This document shows positions 47,313-62,554 of a stretch of DNA of 64,000 nt, one piece after another (position 1 is the first letter of the stretch; each line of letters begins with the position of its first letter). The DNA is taken from positions 186,001-250,000 of the forward strand of contig CALXDD010000001.1 in assembly GCA_944386985.1 (NCBI GenBank), in the 5' to 3' direction. Below the pieces are notes generated by a model. That model saw only the letters and a list, made by a program, of their open reading frames with translations, searched no databases and was not told where the DNA came from. Made by a program: the position numbers and the translations under genes. The stretch comes from an uncultured Oscillospiraceae bacterium (GTDB taxonomy: Bacteria > Bacillota > Clostridia > Oscillospirales > Oscillospiraceae).

Positions 47313-47337
47313 TTGAATTTCAATTATTGAAATTCAA
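47313..47337. promoter_or_regulatory. 25-bp perfect palindrome, IclR-type operator candidate
   Basis: TTGAATTTCAAT (47313-47324) and ATTGAAATTCAA (47326-47337) surround a single T. It overlaps the iclR stop codon and lies about 20-45 bases downstream of the antisense promoter's expected start point. IclR-family proteins bind such TTTCA/TGAAA palindromes. Confidence 0.6.
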
Positions 47338-48140
47338 ACGCCGACCGGAGGCGTTCCCTGGTACCCCAGCGTAGCGGAGATGGCGGCGGCGGTTTGCCGC
47401 AGCCGGCCGAGAAAGCGGTGGACGGCCTCATCGGTCATCCGGCTGGCCGGGCCGGTAACGCTGATGCCCGCCACGATGGTGCCGGTGTAGTCCCGGATGG
47501 GGCAGGCCATGCACCGTACCCCCTGCTCACACTCCTCATTGTCATAGGCCACATCCTCACGCCGGATCTGTTCCAGCTCCCGGAGGAGCCTCTCCTTGGT
47601 GGTGATGGTGTTGGGGGTCATGCGGAAGAGGCCCTTCACCCGGATCAGCCGGTCCAGGTCCTCCTCCGAATAGGTGAGGAGCCGCAGCTTCCCGTTTCCC
47701 GTGCAGTGCATGGGACTGGTGTTGCCGATGCGCTGAAGGCTCATGAGGGTCTGGTTGGGGCCCGCCGCCACATCGATGTACACCATGGTCATCTCCCGTT
47801 CCACAGAGATGCATACTGCTTCATGGAGCTGTTCAGCCAGAGAGACCAGATAGGGGTGGGTCACCGTGGGCAGCTCCACATGGCTGGTGAGCTGGTTGGC
47901 CAGATAGCACAGCTTGTAGGTCAGCTGGTAACGCTGGGAGGTCTCCTCCTGGGAGACATATCCGCACTGCTGCAGGGCGGTGAGAAAGCGCAGGGCAGTG
48001 CTGGGATTGAGCCCCAGAGCGTCGCTGATATCCCTGAGACGCATGGGCGTTCTGGACTGGGCCAGCAGCTCCAGCAGCGCCATGGCCTTTTCCGTGGACT
48101 GGTTGGAATTGGGCGTTGATTTCTTCTCTGCAGCGGACAT
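47334..48140 (-). CDS. IclR-family transcriptional regulator
   Basis: This 268-residue regulator has an N-terminal winged helix-turn-helix (residues ~14-75, EKAMALLELLAQSRTPMRLRDIS with the recognition helix LNPSTALRFLTAL) and a C-terminal effector domain (~80-260). Typical effector-domain segments are EAVCISVEREMTMVYIDVAAG, MHCTGNGKLRLL, YDNEECEQGVRCMACPI and GTIVAGISVTGPASRM. It is divergent from the 2-hydroxyacid dehydrogenase and glycerate kinase genes. Regulation of those genes by glycerate, glyoxylate or a similar acid is inferred. Confidence 0.92.
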   Translation of the reverse strand: MSAAEKKSTPNSNQSTEKAMALLELLAQSRTPMRLRDISDALGLNPSTALRFLTALQQCGYVSQEETSQRYQLTYKLCYLANQLTSHVELPTVTHPYLVSLAEQLHEAVCISVEREMTMVYIDVAAGPNQTLMSLQRIGNTSPMHCTGNGKLRLLTYSEEDLDRLIRVKGLFRMTPNTITTKERLLRELEQIRREDVAYDNEECEQGVRCMACPIRDYTGTIVAGISVTGPASRMTDEAVHRFLGRLRQTAAAISATLGYQGTPPVGV

Positions 48141-48333: not shown

Positions 48334-49299
48334 ATGAAGATTGTTGTTCTGGACGGTTATACCGAGAATCCCGGTGATCTGAGCTGGGCTGGTCTGGAGG
48401 CTCTGGGCGATGTGACGGTCTATGACCGTACCTCCTATGTGGACGATCCCGTGATTGCCCAGCGCATCGGCGACGCCGAGGTGGTCATCACCAACAAGAC
48501 TCCCATCACCAAGGCCACCATTGACAAGTGCCCCAACATGAAGCTCATCGCCTTCCTGGCCACCGGCTACAACGCCGCTGACTACAACTATGCCAAGGAG
48601 AAGGGGATTCTGGTGGCCAATGTTCCCACCTACGGCACTGCCTGCGTGGGCCAGTACGCCATCGCTCTGCTGCTGGAGATCTGCCACCACATCGGCCACC
48701 ACGACAAGACCGTTCACGAGGGTAAGTGGGCCAAGCACATCGACTGGTGCTACTGGGACTACCCCCTCATCGAGCTGGACGGCAAGACTGTGGGTATCAT
48801 CGGCTTTGGCCGCATCGGCCAGACCACCGGCCGCATCGCCAAGGCCATGGGGATGAACATCCTGGCCTACGACCTCTATCCCAACGATTCCGGCAAGGCC
48901 ATCGCCGAGTATGTGGATCTGGACACCCTGCTGGCCAAGTCCGATGTGATCTTCCTCCACTGCAACCTGACCGCCGATAACGAGGGCATGATCAACAAGG
49001 ACACCATTGCCAAGATGAAGGACGGCGCCATCCTGATCAACAACTCCCGTGGCCAGCTCATCAACGAGCAGGACGTGACCGATGCTCTGAAGTCCGGGAA
49101 GCTGGCTGCCGCCGGTCTGGACGTGGTGTACACCGAGCCCATCAAGGCCGATAACCCCCTGCTGACCGCCCCCAACTGCATCATCACCCCGCACATGTCC
49201 TGGGGCGCCAAGGAGGCCCGCCAGCGGATCATGGACATCACGGTGGACAACGTGAAGGCATACATCGCCGGAAGCCCCATCAATATCGTCAACAAGTAA
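48334..49299 (+). CDS. D-2-hydroxyacid dehydrogenase (glycerate/hydroxypyruvate reductase type)
   Basis: This 321-residue NAD-dependent dehydrogenase likely interconverts hydroxypyruvate (or glyoxylate) and D-glycerate (or glycolate). The nucleotide site is VGIIGFGRIGQTTGR followed by the NAD-selecting Asp in AYDLYP. The catalytic Arg lies in NNSRGQLINE, Glu in VVYTEPI and His in ITPHMSWGAKEAR. A glycerate kinase gene follows, which supports the glycerate role. An AAAGGA site precedes the ATG. Confidence 0.88.
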   Translation: MKIVVLDGYTENPGDLSWAGLEALGDVTVYDRTSYVDDPVIAQRIGDAEVVITNKTPITKATIDKCPNMKLIAFLATGYNAADYNYAKEKGILVANVPTYGTACVGQYAIALLLEICHHIGHHDKTVHEGKWAKHIDWCYWDYPLIELDGKTVGIIGFGRIGQTTGRIAKAMGMNILAYDLYPNDSGKAIAEYVDLDTLLAKSDVIFLHCNLTADNEGMINKDTIAKMKDGAILINNSRGQLINEQDVTDALKSGKLAAAGLDVVYTEPIKADNPLLTAPNCIITPHMSWGAKEARQRIMDITVDNVKAYIAGSPINIVNK

Positions 49300-49344
49300 G
49301 TTCTCTTCTCTCTCTCATCATTAATATCCCGGAGGAAACAAGCG

Positions 49345-49404
49345 TTGTCCGCCTTTGCGGTGCAGCGCTTGTTTCATAGGGGACAGGAATGGAGCTATAT
49401 ATGA
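49345..49404 (+). CDS. Possible 19-residue leader peptide coupled to glycerate kinase
   Basis: A TTG at 49345 follows GGAGG (49331-49335) by nine bases and opens a 19-codon frame that ends in TGA overlapping the glxK ATG at 49401 (ATGA). The message here also folds: AAACAAGCG (49336-49344) pairs with CGCTTGTTT (49366-49374), with an inner CCGC/GCGG stem. The peptide has no known homologue in my memory. Translation is a guess; the hairpin may be the real element. Confidence 0.25.
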   Translation: MSAFAVQRLFHRGQEWSYI

Positions 49405-50537
49405 AAAAGATTATCATGATTTCCGACTCCTTCAAGGGCTCGCTCTCCAGCGGCGACATCTGCGCCATCGCCCGGGAGAGTGTGGAGAAGTTCTTCCCCG
49501 GCTGCGAGGTCATCGGCCTTCCCGTGGCCGACGGCGGCGAGGGGACAGTGGACTGCTTCTTAGAGGCCTGCGGCGGCCGGTCCGTGACGGTCGGCGGCGT
49601 CACCGGCCCTTTGGGGGAGACCATCGAGGCATCCTACGGCATGCTGGACGATACCACCGCTGTGGTGGAGATGGCCGCGGCTGCCAGCCTCCCCATGGTG
49701 GGGGACAACAAGGACCCTCGTATCGCCACCACCTACGGGGTGGGCCAGCTGCTGCGCCACGCGGTGGAGAACGGGGCAAAGAAAATCATTCTGGGTCTTG
49801 GCGGCAGCGCCACCAACGACTGCGGCTGCGGCTGCGCCGCCGCGCTGGGCGTCCGCTTCACCGACAACGAGGGTAAGGACTTCATCCCTGCCGGAGGGAA
49901 CCTGGACCGGGTGGCCCATATCGATGTCTCCGAAGCGAAGAAGCTTTTGGAGGGAGTGGAGATCACCGCCATGTGCGACATCGACAACCCCATGTTCGGT
50001 CCCCAGGGCGCGGCCTATATCTTCGGTCCCCAGAAGGGCGCCGACGAGGCCATGGTCAAGCTGCTGGACGACAACCTGAGGGCCATCAACGCCGTCATTG
50101 AGACGGAGCTTGGCGTCAAGGTGGCGGATCTGCCCGGCGCTGGGGCTGCCGGCGCCTTCGGAGCCGGCGTGGTGGCGTTTCTTGGCGGCAAGCTGAAAAG
50201 CGGCATCGAGACTGTGCTGGATACGGTGGAGTTTGACCGCCTTCTCAACGGCGCCGACGTGGTGTTTACCGGCGAGGGACGTATTGACAGCCAGAGCCTC
50301 CGGGGCAAGGTCATCAGCGGCGTGGCCAGCCGGGCTGTAAAGCAGAATGTGCCGGTGATTGCTGTGGTGGGCGACGTGCTGGACGACGCCTACGAGGCTT
50401 ACGACATCGGCGTCACTGCGATTTTCAGCATCAACCGCCTGGCGATCCCCTTCTCGGAGTCCAGGCACCGCAGCCGCCAGGACTATATCCACACCTTTGA
50501 GGATGTGCTGCGCTGCATGCGCGCCATGAAAAAATAA
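49401..50537 (+). CDS. glxK: Glycerate kinase (GlxK/GarK family)
   Basis: This 378-residue type I glycerate kinase phosphorylates D-glycerate, usually to 2-phosphoglycerate. The N terminus reads KIIMISDSFKGSLSSGDICA, and GLPVADGGEGTVDCF, GLGGSATNDCGCG and TGEGRIDSQSLRGKV are family signatures. The ATG at 49401 fits the family start and lies six bases after GGAG; an in-frame ATG at 49389 is possible. Together with the upstream dehydrogenase it links hydroxypyruvate to glycolysis. Confidence 0.93.
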   Translation: MKKIIMISDSFKGSLSSGDICAIARESVEKFFPGCEVIGLPVADGGEGTVDCFLEACGGRSVTVGGVTGPLGETIEASYGMLDDTTAVVEMAAAASLPMVGDNKDPRIATTYGVGQLLRHAVENGAKKIILGLGGSATNDCGCGCAAALGVRFTDNEGKDFIPAGGNLDRVAHIDVSEAKKLLEGVEITAMCDIDNPMFGPQGAAYIFGPQKGADEAMVKLLDDNLRAINAVIETELGVKVADLPGAGAAGAFGAGVVAFLGGKLKSGIETVLDTVEFDRLLNGADVVFTGEGRIDSQSLRGKVISGVASRAVKQNVPVIAVVGDVLDDAYEAYDIGVTAIFSINRLAIPFSESRHRSRQDYIHTFEDVLRCMRAMKK

Positions 50538-50592: not shown

Positions 50593-50934
50593 TCCGTGCT
50601 GAAAATGCGGCAGAGGATAGGCAGGCTGTGTCAGAAGGCCGGCGTTTTTGCTGTTCCAGGCGCAGCTCCAGTCCTGGGGCGGCTGCTTGCCGGGGCCTTC
50701 GGGGGAGGCGGAATATCGCAGCTGCCTGTGAATTTTCTCTCCCTGGCCCCGCTCTCTCTTCAAGCGGGAGAAGAAAAAATAGCAGCAGCCAAATTTTGGC
50801 GATTGTTCCAGACATATCCCGGAGTGGACCGACAGAATCACCAAAATCTTTGTTAAAAATAGAACGATGATTGACAAGCGCGCTGGGTACTTGGTATTCT
50901 AACTACAGAGTTTGACGCGACAATTTCATATTCG
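50593..50934 (+). other. Intergenic region upstream of the gcv riboswitch
   Basis: This 342-bp stretch holds no gene that I can support. Its only recognisable element is the gcv promoter at 50871-50900. Confidence 0.5.
50871..50900 (+). promoter_or_regulatory. Sigma-A promoter of the glycine-cleavage operon
   Basis: TTGACA at 50871-50876 and TATTCT at 50895-50900 are separated by 18 bases, about 30 bases before the first glycine aptamer. Confidence 0.75.
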
Positions 50935-51137
50935 GATGATGGATTCAGGAGAGTCCGCCTTTGGCGGCACCGAAGGAGCAATGCCACACTCTCTCAGGTA
51001 AATGGACTGGGTCCGGACGAAAATCTGCAAAGCACTGCGGTGCACCGGCGGGGCAACTGAAAGGTAGGCGCCTTTTGGGAATCTCTCAGGTAAAGACACA
51101 GAGGCGTGACGATGGGGTCGTTGCGTCTCTGTTTTTG
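50935..51137 (+). ncRNA. Tandem glycine riboswitch with terminator
   Basis: Aptamer I spans about 50935-51015, with ACCGAAGGAGCAA and CTCTCTCAGGTAAATGGAC. Aptamer II spans about 51016-51106, with ACCGGCGGGGCAACTG and ATCTCTCAGGTAAAGACA. The CTCTCAGG core occurs in both. Directly after is a terminator: 51099-51112 pairs with 51118-51131 (with G-U pairs) and TTTTT follows, and it overlaps the closing stem of aptamer II. Glycine binding should prevent termination and switch on gcv expression. Aptamer II has GGC where GAA is usual after ACC. Confidence 0.92.
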
Positions 51138-51177: not shown

Positions 51178-53832
51178 ATGAGCGAGCTGAAGCGTACCCA
51201 ACTCTATGACGTCCATGTGGCGGCCGGAGCCACCATGGTGGATTTCGGCGGATGGGAGATGCCCATCCAGTACCCCACCGGCATTGTGGCTGAGCATCTG
51301 TGGTGCCGCAGCCAGTGCGGAATTTTCGACGTCAGTCACATGGGCCGCCTGGACATCGAGGGGCCGGAGAATGTGAAGTTTTTGCAGCATGTTCTCTCCA
51401 GCAACGTGCTGGCGCTGGATATCAATCAGGCCCAGTACGCCCTGATCCCCAATGAAACCGGCGGCGTCATCGACGACGTGTACCTCTACCGCTTTGAGGA
51501 GAGCAAGTATTTTCTGGTCATCAACGCCGGCAACATCGACAAGGACCTGGCCCACCTGTACAAGGAGGCGGAGAAGTTCGATGTGAAGATCACCGACGTC
51601 TCCCGTGATTACGCCGCCATCGCGGTGCAGGGACCCAAGTCCAAGGATATCCTGATGGTGATGTCCGGCGGCGCTCCCCTGACGGTGGAGAACGCCAAGA
51701 ACTCTCTGAACACCCTGACCATGGACGGAAAGAACGTCCGCATCGCCAAGACCGGCTATACCGGCGAGCCCATCGGCTATGAGCTGTACTGCGACAGCGC
51801 CGACGCGGTGTACTTCTGGAACCGCCTTGTTGAGCTGGGCGCCAAGCCTGTTGCCCTGGGCGCCCGGGATACCCTCCGTATGGAGGCGGCCCTGCCCCTC
51901 TACGGCCACGAGATGGGTGAGTGCCAGCTGGGCGGAGAGATCCAGGCCTACGCCTCCCCTCTGGCCAAGTTCGCCGTATCCTTCAACCCCGACAAGGGCG
52001 ACTTCGTGGGCAGAGCGCCTCTCCTCAAGCAGTTTGAGGCCCTGAAGAAGATCCTGAACCGGGATTACTCCTCCATCGGGGACCTGCCCTACCGCATCCA
52101 GCCCATCTGCCTTTTGGGCAAGGGTGTGCTCCGTGCCGGATTCCCCATCTATGACGCCCGCAACGGCGAGGAGCTGGGCTATGTGACCTCCGGTACCATG
52201 ATCCCCTACTTTGAGACCGAGGGCACCGGCATCGAGTCGGTGATCACCGAGCGTTCCGCCAAGCGCTCCATCGGCCTGGCCTACATGAAGTCCCATGTGG
52301 TGACGGAGTTTGAGATCGAGGTGGATATCCGCGGCAAGCGTGTTCCCGCCGTGGTCACCGCCTGCCATATGCGGCAGGATGCCCCGCCCTACACCCGTCC
52401 CATCCTCTACAAGAAGACCACCGTGGAAGGCCCCAGCCAGGTCACCGACTACGCGGCGAAGGTGAAGGAGCTGTTCATCAAGGCCGGCGAGAACCACGTC
52501 TGGCGCCAGCAGCAGTGCATCAACCTGATCCCCTCGGAGATGACTCCCTCCAAGGCCACCCGCCTGCTGCAGATTTCCGACCCCTGCGGCCGTTATGCCG
52601 AGCACAAGAAGCAGAAGGCATTCGACGACGCGGATATCCCCTACTACCAGGGCACCAAGTTCATCGTGGCCTGCGAGGAGCTGCTGGCCGCTGAAATGCG
52701 GAAGTTCCTGGGCGCGGCCCAGGTGGAGCCCCGGTGCGTATCCGGCCAGATGTCCAACACCGCTGTGTTCTCCGCCCTCATGGACTGGAAGAACCGGGTG
52801 GACCGCAAGCGCCAGCCCCAGCGCCTGGGCTGGATCATGAACAACCACATCGTCCGCGGCGGTCACCTCAGCGCCCAGCCCATGGGCGCCCTCCACGACT
52901 ATGTGGCCGTGGATCCCGTTACCGAGAAGCAGATGGTGGTGAACTTCCCCGTCCTGCCGGAGAACCCCTACAAGATCGACGTAGAGGCCACCAAGGTGCT
53001 GCTGGATCAGTATAAGCCGGAGTTCATCGTCTTCGGTAAGTCCATGGTGCTTCACAAGGAGCCTGTGGCGGAGATCCGGAAGTTTGTGGATGAGCAGGGC
53101 ATCTCCACCACCATCATGTACGATATGGCCCATGTGCTGGGCCTCGTGGGCGACTACTTCCAGAAGCCCTTTGAGGAGGGCGCGGAGATCGTCACCGGCT
53201 CCACCCACAAGACCTTCTTCGGTCCCCAGCGGGGCGTCATCGGCGTCAGCTACAAGCCGGAGGATCTGAAGTGGAGCCTGTGGGAGACCATGCAGACCCG
53301 CACCTTCCCCGGCAGCGTCTCCAACCACCACCTGGGCACTCTGCTGGCAGAGCTGGTGTCCGCCTATGAGATGAACGCCTTCAAGGATGAGTACCAGAAG
53401 GCGGTTACCGAGAACGCCAAGTGGCTTGCCAAGTGCCTGGCGGAAGAGGGCATGGACGTGGCCGGCGATCCCGCTGTGGGCTACACCGAGACCCACCAGG
53501 TCATTGTGAAGGTGGGCTACGCCAAGGGCCCCGAGGTGGCGGAGCGCCTGGAGCGCAACAACATCATCGTCAACTACCAGGCCACCCCCGAGGAGGAGGG
53601 CTTCACCGCCTCCGGCGCGCTGCGGATGGGTGTCAATGAGATGACCCGCTTCGGCTTCGGCAAGGAGGAGTTCAAGAAGCTGGCCCACCTGATCGCCGAG
53701 TGCGTCAAGGGCGTGGAGGTCAAGGACGAGGTTGCCAAGTTCCGCTCCGGCTATACCGAGATGCGCTACTGCTTCTCCGACGCCGATACCGAGGCCGCCC
53801 TTCAGGGCCTTACCGGCGTTCTGGGTATCTGA
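51178..53832 (+). CDS. gcvT: Fused aminomethyltransferase (GcvT) and serine hydroxymethyltransferase
   Basis: This 884-residue protein joins two complete enzymes in one frame. Residues ~1-415 are GcvT, the T-protein that releases methylene-THF and ammonia from aminomethyl-lipoyl Gcv[18 protein letters not shown], the folate-site [17 protein letters not shown], and [18 protein letters not shown]. Residues ~424-884 are a serine hydroxymethyltransferase: [13 protein letters not shown], the PLP Lys678 in [14 protein letters not shown], and [12 protein letters not shown]. The FGPQ form of the Lys loop recalls archaeal GlyA rather than the usual bacterial LRGPRGG. GGAGG eight bases upstream sets the start at 51178. 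Fusion would allow direct passage of methylene-THF from glycine cleavage to serine synthesis. Confidence 0.93.
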
Positions 53833-53923: not shown

Positions 53924-54298
53924 ATGAACTTTCCTGCTGAGCTGAAGTATTCCAAGTCCCACGAGTGGGTCAAGATGATCGACGACACCACCGCTCTGGT
54001 GGGCATTACCGATTTCGCCCAGAGCGAGCTGGGTGACCTGGTGTTTATCAACCTGCCCGCCGAGGGCGACGCCGTCACCAAGGAGGAGTCCTTCTGCGAC
54101 GTGGAGTCCGTGAAGGCCGTCAGCGACGTGATGAGCCCCGTCACCGGCACCGTGGCCGAGGTCAACAGCGAGCTGGAGGACGAGCCCCAGAAGCTCAACG
54201 AGGCTCCCTACGAGGCATGGATCGCCAAGATCAGCGACATCAGCGACTTTGAGGAGCTGCTGGACGCTGCCGCCTACGAGGCTTTCATCCAGAAGTAA
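53924..54298 (+). CDS. gcvH: Glycine cleavage system H protein
   Basis: This 124-residue lipoyl carrier shuttles the aminomethyl group between P, T and L proteins. The N terminus reads [14 protein letters not shown], and the lipoylated Lys64 lies in [18 protein letters not shown]. Length is normal. The start at 53924 follows AAGGAGG, although an open frame runs upstream into the fusion gene. Confidence 0.96.
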
Positions 54299-54334: not shown

Positions 54335-55642
54335 ATGGGAAGCTATGTTCCCAATACCATGGACCAGCGGAAAGCCATGCTGGACGTGATCGGTGTCTCC
54401 TCGGTGGACGACCTGTTTGAGAGCGTCCCCCACGAGATGCTGGTGGGCGACGGCCTGAAGCTGCCCAACGGTCTCAGTGAGCTGGAGGTCCGGGCCAAGG
54501 TCACCGCCATGGCCGAGCGCAACCGGGTCTACAAGACCATCCTCCGGGGCGCCGGAGCCTACCGCCACTTCATCCCCTCGGTGGTGAAGAGCGTCATCTC
54601 CCGGGAGGAGCTGGTGACGGCCTACACCCCCTACCAGGCGGAGATCAGCCAGGGCATCCTTCAGTCCATCTTTGAGTATCAGACCATGATCTGCATGCTT
54701 ACCGGCATGGACGTGTCCAACGCCTCCGTCTATGACGGCGGAACCGCCGCCGCCGAGGCCATCACCATGTGCAAGGACCGCAAGCGCCGTAAGGCATATG
54801 TGTCCGCCTGCGCCAACCCCGACGTCATCGGTGTGATGAAGACCTACTGCTTCGGCTCCGACACGGAGCTGGAGATCATCCCTGAAAAGGACGGCCGCAC
54901 GGACCTGGAGGCCCTGAAGGCCATGGTGGGCGACGATGCCGCCTGCGTATACATCCAGCAGCCCAACTACTACGGCAACGTGGAGGAGGCCGCCGCTATC
55001 GGCGAGATCGTCCACGCCGCCGGCGCCAAATACGTCATGGGCGTGAACCCCATCGCCTGTGCCATCATGGAGACCCCCGCCGCCTGCGGAGCCGACGTAG
55101 CGGTGGGCGACGGCCAGCCGTTAGGGTTGGACATCGCCTTCGGCGGTCCGTATCTTGGGTTCATGGCCGCCACAAAGGCCATGTTCCGCAAGCTCCCCGG
55201 CCGCATCGTGGGCCAGACCCACGATGTGGAGGGCAATGTGGGCTATGTCCTTACCCTCACCGCCCGTGAACAGCACATCCGCCGGGAGAAGGCGTCCTCC
55301 AACATCTGCTCCAACCAGGCCCTGTGCGCCTTTGCCACCGGGGTGTATATGACCGCCATGGGCGAGGAGGGCCTCCGTCAGGCGGCTACCCTCTCCATGT
55401 CCAAGGCCCACTACCTGGCCGGCGAGCTGGAGAAGATCGGCATGAAGCGCCTGCACGATGGGGAATATTTCCACGAGTTTGTCACCGCCTGCGACAAGCC
55501 GGAGGCGGTGCTGAAGGCCCTGGACGACCAGGGTATCCTGGGCGGCCTCCCCGTGGAGGGCGGCATCCTCTGGTGCGTCACCGAGCTGGTGACCAAGGAG
55601 GAGCTGGACCGGGCCGTGGCCATCATCAAGGAGGTGGGCTGA
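54335..55642 (+). CDS. gcvPA: Glycine dehydrogenase (decarboxylating) subunit 1
   Basis: This 435-residue protein is the N-terminal half of split P-protein. It has [53 protein letters not shown] and [11 protein letters not shown]. It forms the glycine decarboxylase with GcvPB but lacks the PLP lysine, which is in subunit 2. It lies 36 bp after gcvH and one base before gcvPB. Confidence 0.96.
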
Positions 55643-55643
55643 G

Positions 55644-57071
55644 ATGAAGCTGATTTTTGAAAAAGGCGCCCCTGGCCAGCACCTGAGCCTGATGCCCCCC
55701 TGCGATGTGCCGGTGGTCACGCCCAAGCGGCCCCGTACGGAGCCTCTGCCCCTGCCCCATGTGTCGGAGACGGAGCTGACCCGCCACTACACCGCTCTCG
55801 CCAAGCGGGTCCACGGCGTCAATGACGGGTTCTACCCCTTGGGCTCCTGCACTATGAAGTACAACCCCAAGATCAATGAGGACATGGCCGCCCTGCCCGG
55901 CTTTACCCAGGTCCACCCCCTCCAGCCGGAGGAGACGGTCCAGGGCTGCATGGAGGTCTACGCCGAGGCGGAGCGCCTTCTGGACGAGATCACCGGCATG
56001 GACGCCATGACCTTCCAGCCCGCTGCCGGCGCCCACGGCGAGTTTACCGGCCTTCTGCTTATCAAGGCCTACCACCATCACCGTGGGGATACCGCCCGCA
56101 CCAAGATCATCGTCCCCGACTCCGCCCACGGCACCAACCCCGCCTCGGCGGTGATGGCGGGCTTCTCCGTGGTGAACATCCCCTCCGCCCCCGACGGCTG
56201 CGTGGATGTGGAGGCTCTGAAGGCCGCTGTGGGTCCCGACACCGCCGGTCTCATGCTCACGAACCCCAACACTGTGGGCATCTTTGACAAGAACATTCTG
56301 GAGATTACCCGGATCGTCCACGAGGCGGGCGGCCTCTGCTACTACGACGGCGCCAACCTCAACGCCGTCATGGGCGTGGTCCGTCCCGGCGACATGGGCT
56401 TTGACGTGATCCACCTGAATCTCCACAAGACATTTTCCACGCCTCACGGCGGCGGCGGCCCCGGCTCCGGCGCGGTGGGCTGCAAGGAGATCCTCCGGCC
56501 CTTCCTGCCCGGCCCTGTGGTGGTGAAGGGCGAGAGCGGCTATCACTTTGAGAAGCCGGAGCACTCTATTGGCCGGGTGAAGGACTTTTACGGCAACTTC
56601 ACCGTGGTGGTGAAGGCCCTGACCTACATCCTGACCCTCGGCAAGGAGGGCATCCCCGAGGCCGCCAAGAATGCGGTGCTCAACGCCAACTACATGATGA
56701 AGCGGCTGAAGGAAAAGTACACCATGGCCTACGACGAGATCTGCATGCACGAGTTCGTCATGTGCCTGGAGGACCTGAAGGAGGAGACCGGCATCTCCGC
56801 TATGGACATTGCCAAGGGCCTTCTGGACAACGGGATCCATCCGCCCACGATGTACTTCCCCCTCATCGTCCACGAGGCGCTGATGATCGAGCCCACAGAG
56901 ACGGAGAGCAAGGAGACGCTGGACGAGGCCTGCGACGTGTTCCTGAAGCTGTGGGATCTGGCCCACACCAATCCTCAGGCTCTCCACGACGCCCCTGTCA
57001 CCACTCCCGTGCGGCGGCTGGACGAGGTGGGCGCCGCCCGAAATCCTGTTTTGCGGTATACGACTGAATGA
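55644..57071 (+). CDS. gcvPB: Glycine dehydrogenase (decarboxylating) subunit 2
   Basis: This 475-residue protein is the C-terminal half of split P-protein. The PLP Lys262 lies in [18 protein letters not shown]. Other family segments are [32 protein letters not shown] and [19 protein letters not shown]. It catalyses glycine decarboxylation onto lipoyl-GcvH. It overlaps lplA by four bases. Confidence 0.96.
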
Positions 57072-58048
57072 AGCTTTTTCTGTACCTGGCACAGGGGACC
57101 AACCCCTATCGAAACTTAGCGGTAGAGCAGTATCTGCTGGAGCATGTGCCCCAGAATGCCTGTATCCTCTACCTGTGGCAGAACCGCCACACCGTGGTCA
57201 TCGGACGCAATCAGAACGCCTGGCAGGAATGCCGCACCGCCCGCCTGGAGGCGGACGGCGGCTTCCTGGCCCGGCGGCTCAGCGGCGGCGGGGCGGTCTT
57301 CCACGATCTCGGCAATCTGAATTTCACCTTTTTGGTCAACAAAAAGGATTATTCTATCGAAAAACAACTATCTGTAATCGTTGAAGCCTGCCGTTCTCTG
57401 GGGATTCCGGCGGAGCGGTCCGGCCGCAACGATGTGCTGACAGGGGGACGGAAGTTCTCCGGCAACGCCTTTTATGAGCACCAGGGCCGGTGCTACCACC
57501 ACGGAACCCTGCTGGTGGATGTGGATATGGAGGCCATGGGCCGCTATCTCAGTCCCTCCACCGCCAAGCTCCAGGCCAAGGGGGTGTCCTCAGTGCGCTC
57601 CCGGGTGGTGAATCTCCGGGAGCTGGTGCCGGGCCTTACCATTGAGGGGCTGATCTCCGCCATGGAGACGGCCTTCGGCAAGGTCTATGGCGGAGAGGCG
57701 GAGCGCCTCGCATCAGACTGGATGGACGCGCGGGAGGTAGACGCTCTGGAGACCCGCTATGCCAGCTGGGAGTGGCGCTACGGCCGGAAGATTCCCTGCA
57801 CCCTCTCCTGCGCCTGCCGCTTTGCCTGGGGCGAGGTGTCCATCCAGCTTCAGGTGGAGGAGGGGATCGTTCAGCAGGCGGCGGTGTATTCCGACGCCAT
57901 GGACTGGTCCCTGGCTCCCGCACTGGAGGGCGCCCTCACCGGCCGCCGGTTCTCGAAGGAGGATCTGGCCGCGGGCGTACGGACTCTGGAGGCGGAGGGA
58001 AGTGTAAAGGAAGATCTCCTGACACTCCTTGCCCAGCAGGACATCTGA
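57068..58048 (+). CDS. lplA: Lipoate-protein ligase
   Basis: This 326-residue ligase attaches lipoate to apo-proteins with ATP; GcvH of the same operon is the obvious acceptor. Family segments are [38 protein letters not shown] and [18 protein letters not shown]-terminal accessory domain (~250-326) is present. It overlaps gcvPB by four bases (ATGA). No lipoate synthase is seen in the window, so exogenous lipoate may be used. Confidence 0.93.
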
Positions 58049-58110: not shown

Positions 58111-59481
58111 ATGAGCGACTATCAACTGATCGTCATCGGCGCCGGCCCCGGCGGATATGTGGCGGCGCTGAAGGCCGCCAAGCTGGGGATGAAGACAGCG
58201 GTGGTGGAAAACCGGGACGTGGGCGGCACCTGCCTCAACCGGGGCTGCATTCCCACCAAAACCCTTCTCCACACCTCGGAACTCTTCCGGGAGGCCCGGG
58301 AGGGGGAGAAGTTCGGCGTCAGCGCCCAGGGCGCGTCTGTGGACTTTGCCGCCGCCCACCGCCGGAAGGCGGAGGTGACGGAGAAGCTGCGCAGCGGGAT
58401 TGAGGGGCTCTTCAAGCAGAAAAAGGTGGATCTCCTCCGGGGCACCGGCACCATCCTGGCCCCCGGCCAGGTGTCGGTGGAGGGGCAGACCTACACTGCC
58501 GACAAGATCCTCATCGCCACCGGCTCCATCCCCTCACGGCCCCCCATCCCGGGGCTGGAGCACGCCATCACCTCCGATGAACTGCTGGAGAGCCAGGATA
58601 AGGTATACGGCTCCCTGGTGATCATCGGCGGCGGCGTCATCGGCATGGAGTTCGCCTCCATCTATAGCGCCCTCGGCTGTGAGGTGACAGTGCTGGAGGC
58701 CATGGACCGGATTTTGCCCAACATGGACCGGGAGATCTGCCAGAATCTCAGCATGATCCTCAAGAAGCGGGGAGTCAAGATTTTCCCCGGCGCCATGGTC
58801 ACCTCCGTGGAGCAGCGGGAGGACGGCATGCGGGTGGTCCGCTACACCCTGAAGGAGCAGCCCGGCGAGGCGGTGGGAGAGGCAGTGCTCTGTGCCATCG
58901 GCCGCCGTCCCAACACCCAGGGCCTCTTTGGAGAGGGGTTCTCTGTAGAAATGGAGCGGGGGAGAATCCTGGTGGATGAGACCTTCCAGACCAGCGTTCC
59001 AGGCGTCTACGCCGTGGGCGATGTGTCCTCCAAGATCCAGCTGGCCCACGCCGCCTCCGCCCAGGGCACCGCCTGCGTGGAGCGCCTGGCGGGGGAGGAG
59101 CCTCTGGTGGATGTGAGTCAGGTGCCCAGCTGCATCTACACCAGCCCGGAGATCGCCTCCATCGGCATCACCGCCGACGAGGCCAAGGCCGCCGGCCGGG
59201 CGGTGAAGGTGGGCAAGTACGTCATGTTCTCCAACGGCAAGACCGTCATCGTGGACGGCGAGCGGGGCTTTATCAAGATCGTAGCAGACGCGGAGACGGG
59301 AGTGATCCTGGGGGCCCAGCTCATGTGCGAGCGGGCCACGGATATGCTCTCCCAGCTTACCGCCGCTGTGGTCAACGGTCTTACCGCCCGGCAGCTTTTG
59401 AAGGTGATGCGTCCCCATCCCACCTTTGAGGAGGGAGTCGGGGAGGCCCTGGAGGATCTGCTGGAGAAGCTGAAGAAGTAA
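58111..59481 (+). CDS. lpdA: Dihydrolipoyl dehydrogenase (glycine-cleavage L protein)
   Basis: This 456-residue FAD enzyme re-oxidises dihydrolipoyl-GcvH with NAD+. The FAD site is LIVIGAGPGGYVAALKAA, the redox pair is Cys41 and Cys46 in GGTCLNRGCIPTKTL, the NAD site is VIIGGGVIGMEFASIY, the second FAD motif is GVYAVGDV, and the active-site His-Glu lies in RPHPTFEEGV. No N-terminal lipoyl domain is fused. It ends the gcv operon. Confidence 0.95.
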   Translation: MSDYQLIVIGAGPGGYVAALKAAKLGMKTAVVENRDVGGTCLNRGCIPTKTLLHTSELFREAREGEKFGVSAQGASVDFAAAHRRKAEVTEKLRSGIEGLFKQKKVDLLRGTGTILAPGQVSVEGQTYTADKILIATGSIPSRPPIPGLEHAITSDELLESQDKVYGSLVIIGGGVIGMEFASIYSALGCEVTVLEAMDRILPNMDREICQNLSMILKKRGVKIFPGAMVTSVEQREDGMRVVRYTLKEQPGEAVGEAVLCAIGRRPNTQGLFGEGFSVEMERGRILVDETFQTSVPGVYAVGDVSSKIQLAHAASAQGTACVERLAGEEPLVDVSQVPSCIYTSPEIASIGITADEAKAAGRAVKVGKYVMFSNGKTVIVDGERGFIKIVADAETGVILGAQLMCERATDMLSQLTAAVVNGLTARQLLKVMRPHPTFEEGVGEALEDLLEKLKK

Positions 59482-60809: not shown

Positions 60810-62243
60810 TCAGCGCTTCATTTTAGCAGGATTATTGAAATAATCCTTTGTGATCTTGATGACAACGCCGCTCAGCAGCAGCAGGCCAATCAGGTTGGGA
60901 ATAGCCATCATAGCGTTGAGGGTATCGGAGATACTCCACATGAGGCCGCCGGAACCGGTGGCGCCCACAACGCACACCAGCACGAAGATGACCTTGTAGA
61001 CCATGTTCACACCCTTGTTGTTGTTGGTCAGATAGCCCCAGCAGCGCTCGCCGTAGTAGCTCCAGCCCAGAACCGTGGTCAGGGAGAAGAACAGCAGGCT
61101 GATCTGCAGCACGATGCCGCCCAGAGTGCCGGGCAGGATGGTGTTGAAGGCGGCGGCGGCAGCGGCGCCGTTGGAGATGTAGGTACCCGACACAGCGTCG
61201 ATGGTAGCACCGTCATACACGCCGGAGAGGATCACGGCCAGGGAGGTGATAGAGCAGATGACGATGGTGTCAACGAAGACCTCAAAGATACCCCAGATGC
61301 CCTGCTCCACAGGATCCTTGGTCTCAGAAGCGGCGTGAGCCATAGGGGCGGAACCGAGACCCGCCTCGTTGGAGAAAACGCCGCGGGCCAGGCCCTGCTG
61401 GATGCCCAGCATGATGGCATAGCCGGTAGCACCGCCGGCCACAGCCTCAGAGGTAAAGGCGCTCTGGAAAATCACGGAGAAGGCGTGGGGCACTTCGGTA
61501 ATGCGCAGGATAATGATGGCAATACCGGCCAGAATATAGAAGCAGGCCATAAAGGGGACCATGTAGCTGGCAACCTGGCCAATGCGCTTGACGCCGCCGA
61601 TGATGACGACGGCCACCACGATAGCCAGGACAATACCGGCTACCAGAGGGGAGATGGTGAAGCCCGCCATACCGCACAGGCTCACCATGGAACCGGCGAT
61701 CTCGGTGGACTGGGCGATGTTGCCGATACCGAAGCAGGCGATGCCCCCCAGCAAAGCGAAGATCACAGCCAGCCACTTCATATTCAGGCCCTTCTCAATG
61801 TAGTACATGGGGCCGCCGTAGTGGGTTCCGTCGGGAGCGGTCTGCCGGTACTTCACCGCCAGAACGATCTCGGAATACTTGGTGAACATACCGAACAGAG
61901 CGGAGATCCACATCCAGAACACCGCCCCGGGGCCGCCCACAAAGATGGCGCCGGTGACGCCGGCGATGTTGCCGGTGCCCACGGTGGAAGCCAGAGCCGT
62001 GGAAACCGCCTCAAAAGCGGTCAGATTCTTGGAGGTCTTGTCCCGCGCTCCTTTGTCGGATTTGCGGAAGAGGGTGCCGATGGTGTTGCGCATGATATAG
62101 GGGAATTTGCGGATCTGAATGAAGCCGGTGCGGACTGTGAGGAAAATGCCGGTGCCCACCAGCAAAACCAGCATGATGGGTCCCCATACGACACCGTTGA
62201 TCGCGCTGTTGACGCTTTCTACTGTTGCGATGAAGTTCTCCAT
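60810..62243 (-). CDS. AGCS-family sodium:alanine/glycine symporter
   Basis: This 477-residue membrane protein has about 11 helices. Family segments include VSTALASTVGTGNIAGVTGAI, GGPGAVFWMWISALFGMFTKYSE, GGPMYYIEKGLN and GVFSNEAGLGSAPMAHAA. It takes up glycine or alanine with Na+. The glycine riboswitch in its leader points to glycine as a substrate. AAAGGAG precedes the ATG at 62243. It is a single-gene unit. Confidence 0.93.
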   Translation of the reverse strand: MENFIATVESVNSAINGVVWGPIMLVLLVGTGIFLTVRTGFIQIRKFPYIMRNTIGTLFRKSDKGARDKTSKNLTAFEAVSTALASTVGTGNIAGVTGAIFVGGPGAVFWMWISALFGMFTKYSEIVLAVKYRQTAPDGTHYGGPMYYIEKGLNMKWLAVIFALLGGIACFGIGNIAQSTEIAGSMVSLCGMAGFTISPLVAGIVLAIVVAVVIIGGVKRIGQVASYMVPFMACFYILAGIAIIILRITEVPHAFSVIFQSAFTSEAVAGGATGYAIMLGIQQGLARGVFSNEAGLGSAPMAHAASETKDPVEQGIWGIFEVFVDTIVICSITSLAVILSGVYDGATIDAVSGTYISNGAAAAAAFNTILPGTLGGIVLQISLLFFSLTTVLGWSYYGERCWGYLTNNNKGVNMVYKVIFVLVCVVGATGSGGLMWSISDTLNAMMAIPNLIGLLLLSGVVIKITKDYFNNPAKMKR

Positions 62244-62280: not shown

Positions 62281-62455
62281 GGGAGCGCCGCATGGTGCAG
62301 CGCTCCCTGAAAAAGTACAGTTCAGCCGTCGAAAGGGGGGAAGACGGCTGCATGCCGGGGTCTGTTCTGTCCTTTTGCCTGAGAGATCGACGAGTCGCTT
62401 GCACCTTCGGCACCCGCTTCAGCCCGGTGGGACCTGCGGGATTCTCCAGAACGCC
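62281..62455 (-). ncRNA. Single glycine riboswitch with terminator
   Basis: On the minus strand the aptamer lies at about 62360-62455: GGAGAATCCCGC, then GGTGCCGAAGGTGCAAGCG, then ATCTCTCAGGCAAAAGGACA, as in glycine aptamers. The downstream platform contains AGCCGTC/GACGGCT (62324-62330 with 62343-62349) and a terminator-like stem GGGAGCGC/GCGCTCCC (62281-62288 with 62300-62307) followed by TTTC. The 90 bases upstream of the aptamer are also folded, but I see no second aptamer core. Confidence 0.88.
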
Positions 62456-62554
62456 ATCCGCCTGCGGCAGCTGCCCTGACGGGCGCCTTCCCAGACTTCC
62501 TCTGGCCGGTATGCGCGGCCTCCCCCCTGAAGGGAAAGGCCTTCTATGCAGTAT

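Follow-up and report, generated by a model that had tools for sequence, protein, structure and literature searches.

A GcvT-serine hydroxymethyltransferase fusion heads a glycine-cleavage operon in gut Oscillospiraceae

The first gene of a gcvT-H-PA-PB-lplA-lpd operon in the window (the whole stretch of 64,000 nucleotides analyzed here), situated downstream of a tandem glycine riboswitch and a terminator, encodes GcvT joined to serine hydroxymethyltransferase (SHMT) in a single chain (Table 1). An earlier, sequence-only reading of this DNA had proposed one 884-codon frame holding both enzymes, with Lys678 in the loop that binds pyridoxal phosphate (PLP). Translation confirmed the uninterrupted frame and the loop as described, and a Pfam search found all three domains above their curated cut-offs: GCV_T (residues 9-248; 261.7 bits), GCV_T_C (residues 361-394; weak, 34.5 bits), and SHMT (PF00464; residues 438-839; 126.6 bits versus a cut-off of 27, over profile positions 13-399 of 399). 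Among the NCBIfam models for GcvT, the fusion passed TIGR00528 (271.9 versus 235.85) and PRK00389 (332.9 versus 300) and stayed below PRK13579 (222 versus 459). The ATG at 51178, which is preceded by AGGAGG, is the likely start codon because the alternative upstream GTG (51106) sits within the terminator hairpin.

Table 1. Features of the fusion operon and its leader (window coordinates).
Feature	Position	Strand	Basis
Sigma-70-like promoter, TTGACA-18-TATTCT	50871..50900	+	10/12 consensus positions
Glycine riboswitch aptamer 1	50936..51019	+	RF00504, 65.6 bits, E 2.2e-11 (whole window)
Glycine riboswitch aptamer 2	51024..51102	+	RF00504, 24.8 bits, E 0.0063, below the Rfam gathering score; directly behind aptamer 1
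Intrinsic terminator	51098..51132	+	16-pair stem followed by T run; -22.9 kcal/mol, z -5.4
GcvT-SHMT fusion	51178..53832	+	884 aa, one frame without stop
GcvT (aminomethyltransferase) half, residues 1-413	51178..52416	+	Pfam, NCBIfam, structure match
Linker, ~residues 414-423	52417..52446	+	Variable sequence, low model confidence
SHMT half, residues 424-884, PLP lysine K678	52447..53829	+	Pfam, structure match, tree
gcvH	53924..54298	+	TIGR00527, 146.4 bits, above family cut-off
gcvPA	54335..55642	+	PRK00451, 553.5 bits, above family cut-off
gcvPB	55644..57071	+	PRK04366, 732.8 bits, above family cut-off
Lipoate-protein ligase (lplA)	57068..58048	+	TIGR00545, 349.2 bits, above family cut-off
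Dihydrolipoyl dehydrogenase, L-protein (lpd)	58111..59481	+	TIGR01350, 506.8 bits, above family cut-off

When the AlphaFold model of the chain was searched with Foldseek, the best solved relatives were GcvT of Bacillus subtilis for the first half (1yx2; 34% identity, TMt 0.86) and SHMT of Methanocaldococcus jannaschii for the second (4uqv/4bhd; TMt 0.82-0.87). The whole chain was modeled with a mean pLDDT of 79 and a pTM of 0.69; residues 414-418 of the linker, whose sequence differs among related fusions in an alignment, fell below a pLDDT of 50, parts of the SHMT site were also of low confidence, and the model is uninformative on whether the two sites face each other. With GcvT (TIGR00528), the fusion has the fold, the folate-binding domain, the catalytic Asp and the operon partners in common; it differs by an insertion at approximately residues 289-304, relative to the solved GcvTs, and by the C-terminal SHMT domain. 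The SHMT half resembles SHMT/GlyA (PF00464; PRK00011), especially the M. jannaschii enzyme, in its PLP lysine, its catalytic Glu, Asp, His and Arg, the loop and the fold, but carries insertions between the conserved Glu and Tyr-Tyr and around GGHL, has Tyr800-Gln801 in the place of Lys-Asn, and is covalently linked to GcvT. The protein is, in short, two known enzymes in a new one-protein architecture. No report of a GcvT-SHMT fusion was found in the openly licensed literature, judged by title and start of the abstract among the matches listed, and the solved structures among the matches listed comprised single-enzyme GcvT or SHMT, a related transaldolase, and other GcvT-domain fusions, with no GcvT-SHMT fusion. 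The one RefSeq entry looked at, that of the Vescimonas fastidiosa copy (WP_212821284.1), is named for GcvT only.

That the operon is controlled by a riboswitch, as had been proposed, agrees with the RF00504 matches and the gene order; judging by their spacing, the gcv genes presumably form one transcript. The 5′ arm of the terminator overlaps the end of aptamer 2, and tandem aptamers with a terminator ahead of the fusion are a layout that we take to be that of a glycine-ON switch. Seven further loci, among 19 fusion regions, were tested for a glycine riboswitch upstream of the fusion; all seven had one, and in three (L096, L097 and L102) two aptamers scored above the gathering score. Promoter-like sites were more frequent than expected (3 in the 401 bases scanned versus 0.3).

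A scan of a named genome collection yielded 439 stretches encoding relatives, the best 80 of which were examined. Both halves lay in one frame at 79 of these best 80 of 439 loci, the exception being a contig that starts within the gene (L137); a stop or frameshift between the halves, which would have spoken against the fusion, is absent from the window as well. By their record titles, these best 80 of 439 loci include the complete genome of Oscillibacter valericigenes Sjm18-20, O. ruminantium GH1, a Calditrichales bacterium, and assemblies of Lachnospiraceae and of Riflebacteria, both under metagenome titles that may be wrong. A survey covering 400 host-family genomes matched the SHMT half at E 1e-27 in 38, of which 37 were of the fusion type (63-100% identity), while the 38th (G289; 34% identity) was another SHMT. 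An uncut, unbroken free-standing copy of the fusion-type SHMT was found neither in the 400 family genomes nor in the best 80 of the 439 loci. The fusion is real, conserved, and widespread in gut Oscillospiraceae.

At E 1e-40, GcvT was matched in 88 of the 400 family genomes, namely the 37 carriers of the fusion and 51 others; 48 of the latter have open frames of 343-472 residues (including that of G294, which runs into a contig end), and the remaining frames comprise 144 (G004, where the match ends early), 638 (G327) and 618 residues (G389). At the G294 locus (L214), two GcvT copies are present; the contig end truncates one, and the frame of the other is broken. In G334 (L093, 3512-4804), a second, plain gcvT follows the fusion in the same operon.

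Beyond the family, one further carrier (G523) was found among 398 genomes drawn from the phylum; within its own family, it was the only carrier among 20 genomes. The likely explanation is horizontal spread, with a misplaced contig as a possible alternative. There (L199, 255-7471), the fusion lies beside an MttB-type methyltransferase, a corrinoid protein and a sigma-54 activator, and no gcv genes were matched in the 16 kb examined. In Calditrichales MX18-03 (L185), which by its record title belongs to another phylum, the order is gcvPA-gcvPB-lpd-fusion.

Conservation of the catalytic residues was assessed in an alignment of 52 fusions (the window and 51 of 68 listed frames); as these alignments were built from frames picked as fused, they are not a separate count of fused loci. 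The catalytic Asp of the GG-IDD motif of GcvT (D99), which aligns with E. coli D97, the position mutated in 3a8k, was invariant in 52/52 aligned fusions, as were E475, Y490, H563, D649, H652, H677, K678 and R816 of the SHMT half; S453 was nearly invariant. The roles of these SHMT positions are assumed to be those of their counterparts in E. coli SHMT, with E475 and Y490 presumably being the Glu and Tyr that mark a folate-dependent site. Both halves had been called complete on sequence alone, and the catalytic residues proved to be retained. Tyr800-Gln801 was likewise present in 52/52 fusions, whereas M. jannaschii SHMT and the four printed GlyA rows have Lys-Asn at these positions, which we take to belong to the pterin site of E. 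coli SHMT. Median dN/dS was 0.33 for the GcvT half and 0.29 for the SHMT half (1041 of 1540 pairs of 56 fusions, dS 0.1-1.2), values that were probably pushed up by saturation. In 24 of the 25 closest printed pairs, both halves stayed below 0.3, and one pair reached 0.47 in the SHMT half. The two halves diverged in step (r 0.92, from pairs that are not independent). Both halves are thus under purifying selection.

Whether the fusion stands in for GlyA was judged from genome content. Counting another SHMT as present at E 1e-60 in the 400 family genomes, none was found in 20 of the 37 carriers versus 64 of the 363 non-carriers (Fisher p 3e-6); restricted to good genomes, the proportions were 17/29 and 27/216 (p 1.3e-7). 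Within genera, the association was weaker but kept (CMH p 0.006, permutation p 0.003). In genus g111, four carriers are without GlyA and three sister species have GlyA and a plain GcvT in the same operon place, before gcvPA-gcvPB-lplA-lpd; a fourth sister species (G120), also with GlyA, gave no match to GcvT. In G149, an assembly of two contigs scored 100% complete, the fusion was the only SHMT found. However, genera g110 and g55 behaved oppositely, with another SHMT missing in 0/3 and 0/1 carriers versus 3/5 and 4/8 non-carriers, respectively, and 17 of the 37 carriers have another SHMT besides the fusion (those of G146 and G329, which were counted, group with a divergent paralogue). Moreover, 57 of the 64 non-carriers without GlyA had no SHMT match even at E 0.001, which shows that members of this family can do without SHMT and makes the argument from absence a statistical one. 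For the genome of the window itself, a second glyA had been suggested as a check: none was found in this 95.5% complete draft, but a near relative with a 96% identical fusion (G006) has one. Because carriers are more often without another SHMT than non-carriers, the SHMT half is probably a working SHMT, as far as genome content can tell.

Taken together, the architecture, the conserved residues, the purifying selection, the glycine riboswitch and the frequent absence of another SHMT point to a bifunctional, glycine-induced enzyme that converts two glycine to serine, CO2 and NH3 with local handover of methylene-tetrahydrofolate (methylene-THF), a reading we consider likely; the two activities, the direction of flux and the handover itself are what we infer from these features. 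Plentiful glycine would open the riboswitch and allow the fusion to be made. Its GcvT half would take the aminomethyl group from H-protein to yield methylene-THF, the one-carbon unit of which the SHMT half would join to a second glycine, giving serine and free THF, and the latter would go back to the GcvT half on the same chain. The net reaction would be two glycine to serine, CO2, NH3 and NADH. One chain would also set a fixed ratio of GcvT to SHMT, and two sites held together could keep methylene-THF and released formaldehyde low. In a published study, methylene-THF gave off formaldehyde when the glycine cleavage system ran by itself, and formaldehyde stayed near zero once SHMT was supplied, with the E. 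coli enzymes as separate proteins (PMC7227101). This suppression of formaldehyde is the clearest published reason found for a benefit of such a fusion. Direct channeling in the strict sense is possible and not required for any of this. Counted against the proposed glycine-to-serine conversion are the carriers with another SHMT, the 57 non-carriers with no SHMT match, the two opposite genera, the replacement of Lys-Asn by Tyr-Gln, the low model confidence at parts of the SHMT site, and other outlets for methylene-THF, because formyltetrahydrofolate synthetase (FTHFS) was present in 39 of the 40 genomes searched. The one in which it was not found is the draft genome of the window (G000), perhaps owing to an assembly gap. 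With FTHFS in 39 of 40, its absence is rejected as the reason for the fusion. A more far-reaching version appears doubtful: in it, methylene-THF would pass directly from the T-protein site to an SHMT site remodeled by Tyr-Gln for Lys-Asn, without mixing with the folate pool, and this one-chain converter would have taken over the serine-glycine step of GlyA in many gut Oscillospiraceae and, as a unit, reached further groups of bacteria.

Both halves might instead be active without handover, the fusion merely fixing expression and stoichiometry and the SHMT half filling the ordinary role of GlyA (serine to glycine and methylene-THF) when needed. This has a substantial chance of being correct, although we lean against it. 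It would suit the 20 of 37 carriers in which no other SHMT was found, the FTHFS of 39 of the 40 genomes, an enzyme that also draws on the folate one-carbon pool, and a variable, poorly modeled linker that implies no fixed face-to-face arrangement. Yet a glycine riboswitch and a glycine-cleavage operon are an odd setting for a housekeeping glycine source, and no uncut free-standing SHMT of this type was found in the best 80 of the 439 loci or in the 400 family genomes.

Where the SHMT half came from bears on a further alternative. The sequence-only reading had assigned it to the FGPQ type rather than the LRGPRGG type, which holds: the FGPQ loop is common to the SHMT half and M. jannaschii SHMT, HKTLRGPRGG is found in 16 of the 20 GlyA of the family retrieved, and ordinary GlyA of the family are only 24-30% identical to the SHMT half. 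A tree was calculated from 36 rows (19 fusions, 13 GlyA, M. jannaschii SHMT and three bacterial SHMT-like proteins) and came with a long-branch warning. The 19 fusions formed one group (100/100), and a 100/100 branch, subject to that warning, placed them and the 13 GlyA on opposite sides. The fusion side also holds M. jannaschii SHMT and the three bacterial proteins (L114, L115 and L118), which contain GSTHKSFPGPQGG and lack the YAEG...YYGG region. By its score with PRK00011 (249.6 bits, below the cut-off of 335) and its place outside the GlyA side of the tree, the SHMT half is, on sequence criteria, not GlyA in the narrow sense. The family also has divergent GlyA paralogues without the usual HKT loop (L080-L082), of which L080 has STTKTF there. 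Acquisition of the SHMT half from an archaeon, with tuning to a modified folate, would explain why M. jannaschii SHMT is the nearest solved relative and why the loop is shared, and that enzyme can use tetrahydromethanopterin (PMC3697235). This combination is nevertheless unlikely: the tree places the three bacterial proteins closer to the fusion than M. jannaschii SHMT (95/87, in a midpoint-rooted drawing with a single archaeal row and the long-branch warning), and the GcvT partner passes two GcvT models and has its nearest solved structure in B. subtilis.

Quite improbable, too, is a folate-independent role for the SHMT half, as a lyase or transaldolase that acts on hydroxy amino acids (e.g., splitting threonine into glycine and acetaldehyde) and supplies the cleavage system with glycine. 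The nearest solved relatives include a threonine transaldolase (7k34), the fluorothreonine transaldolase model TIGR04506 matches at 132.1 bits, far under its cut-off of 650, and Tyr-Gln replaces the Lys-Asn positions. But M. jannaschii SHMT is clearly nearer (159 versus 99 bits for 7k34), E475 and Y490 of the presumed folate-dependent site are invariant, joining to GcvT, a maker of methylene-THF, suits a folate user better, and carriers of the fusion more often have no other SHMT. That the fusion is a product of misassembly, of sequencing errors or of gene decay can be rejected with near certainty, since the same frame recurs in many assemblies including the complete O. valericigenes record and dN/dS is low in both halves, even though the gene has a frame break in three draft relatives among the 37 carriers (G009, G119 and G278), which we read as draft errors or decay.

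In plant mitochondria, glycine decarboxylase and SHMT achieve the same net stoichiometry, from two glycine to serine, as separate proteins using a common folate pool, a couple reportedly described by Rebeille in 1994. The net reaction proposed for the fusion is alike; the plant enzymes are separate, whereas here they would be one chain. Dimethylglycine dehydrogenase/oxidase and sarcosine oxidase, the folds of which were matched, likewise join a GcvT-type folate domain to a partner enzyme. In these, the partner makes a one-carbon unit that the GcvT-type domain captures, whereas the SHMT of the fusion would consume it. Photorespiration and engineered reductive-glycine carbon fixation both hinge on linking glycine cleavage to SHMT, in each case with separate enzymes. 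A natural, conserved fusion offers a ready test of whether handover is of benefit, and a part for pathway engineering. The serine-glycine and folate metabolism of carriers may be misread from annotation because the fusion can be the only SHMT found in a genome, and yet the one database entry looked at names GcvT alone.

Neighboring genes were also considered. The 5-formyl-THF cyclo-ligase was rejected as a conserved helper gene, since no more than 4 of 113 scanned stretches contained it; two of these are identical copies of one locus (L096 and L204), and the other two look like close kin (L193 and L197). At L204 (Vescimonas fastidiosa pMM35_01), the fusion gcv operon adjoins this gene and is part of a replicon of 861 kb that was submitted as a plasmid. 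Directly upstream of the operon in the window are genes for a 2-hydroxyacid dehydrogenase and a glycerate kinase (48334-50537, +), possibly an outlet for serine or hydroxypyruvate, with an IclR-type regulator divergent to them (47334-48140, -). They are not supported as conserved companions: the kinase had no match in 20 related regions, and the dehydrogenase had only weak matches (33-36%) in two of them (L095 and L103); kinase matches of 51-52% occur in L138 and L157. A tRNA scan of the window found no tRNA genes. A second glycine riboswitch (62357-62459, -; 54.2 bits) precedes an AgcS-type amino acid carrier (60810-62243, -).
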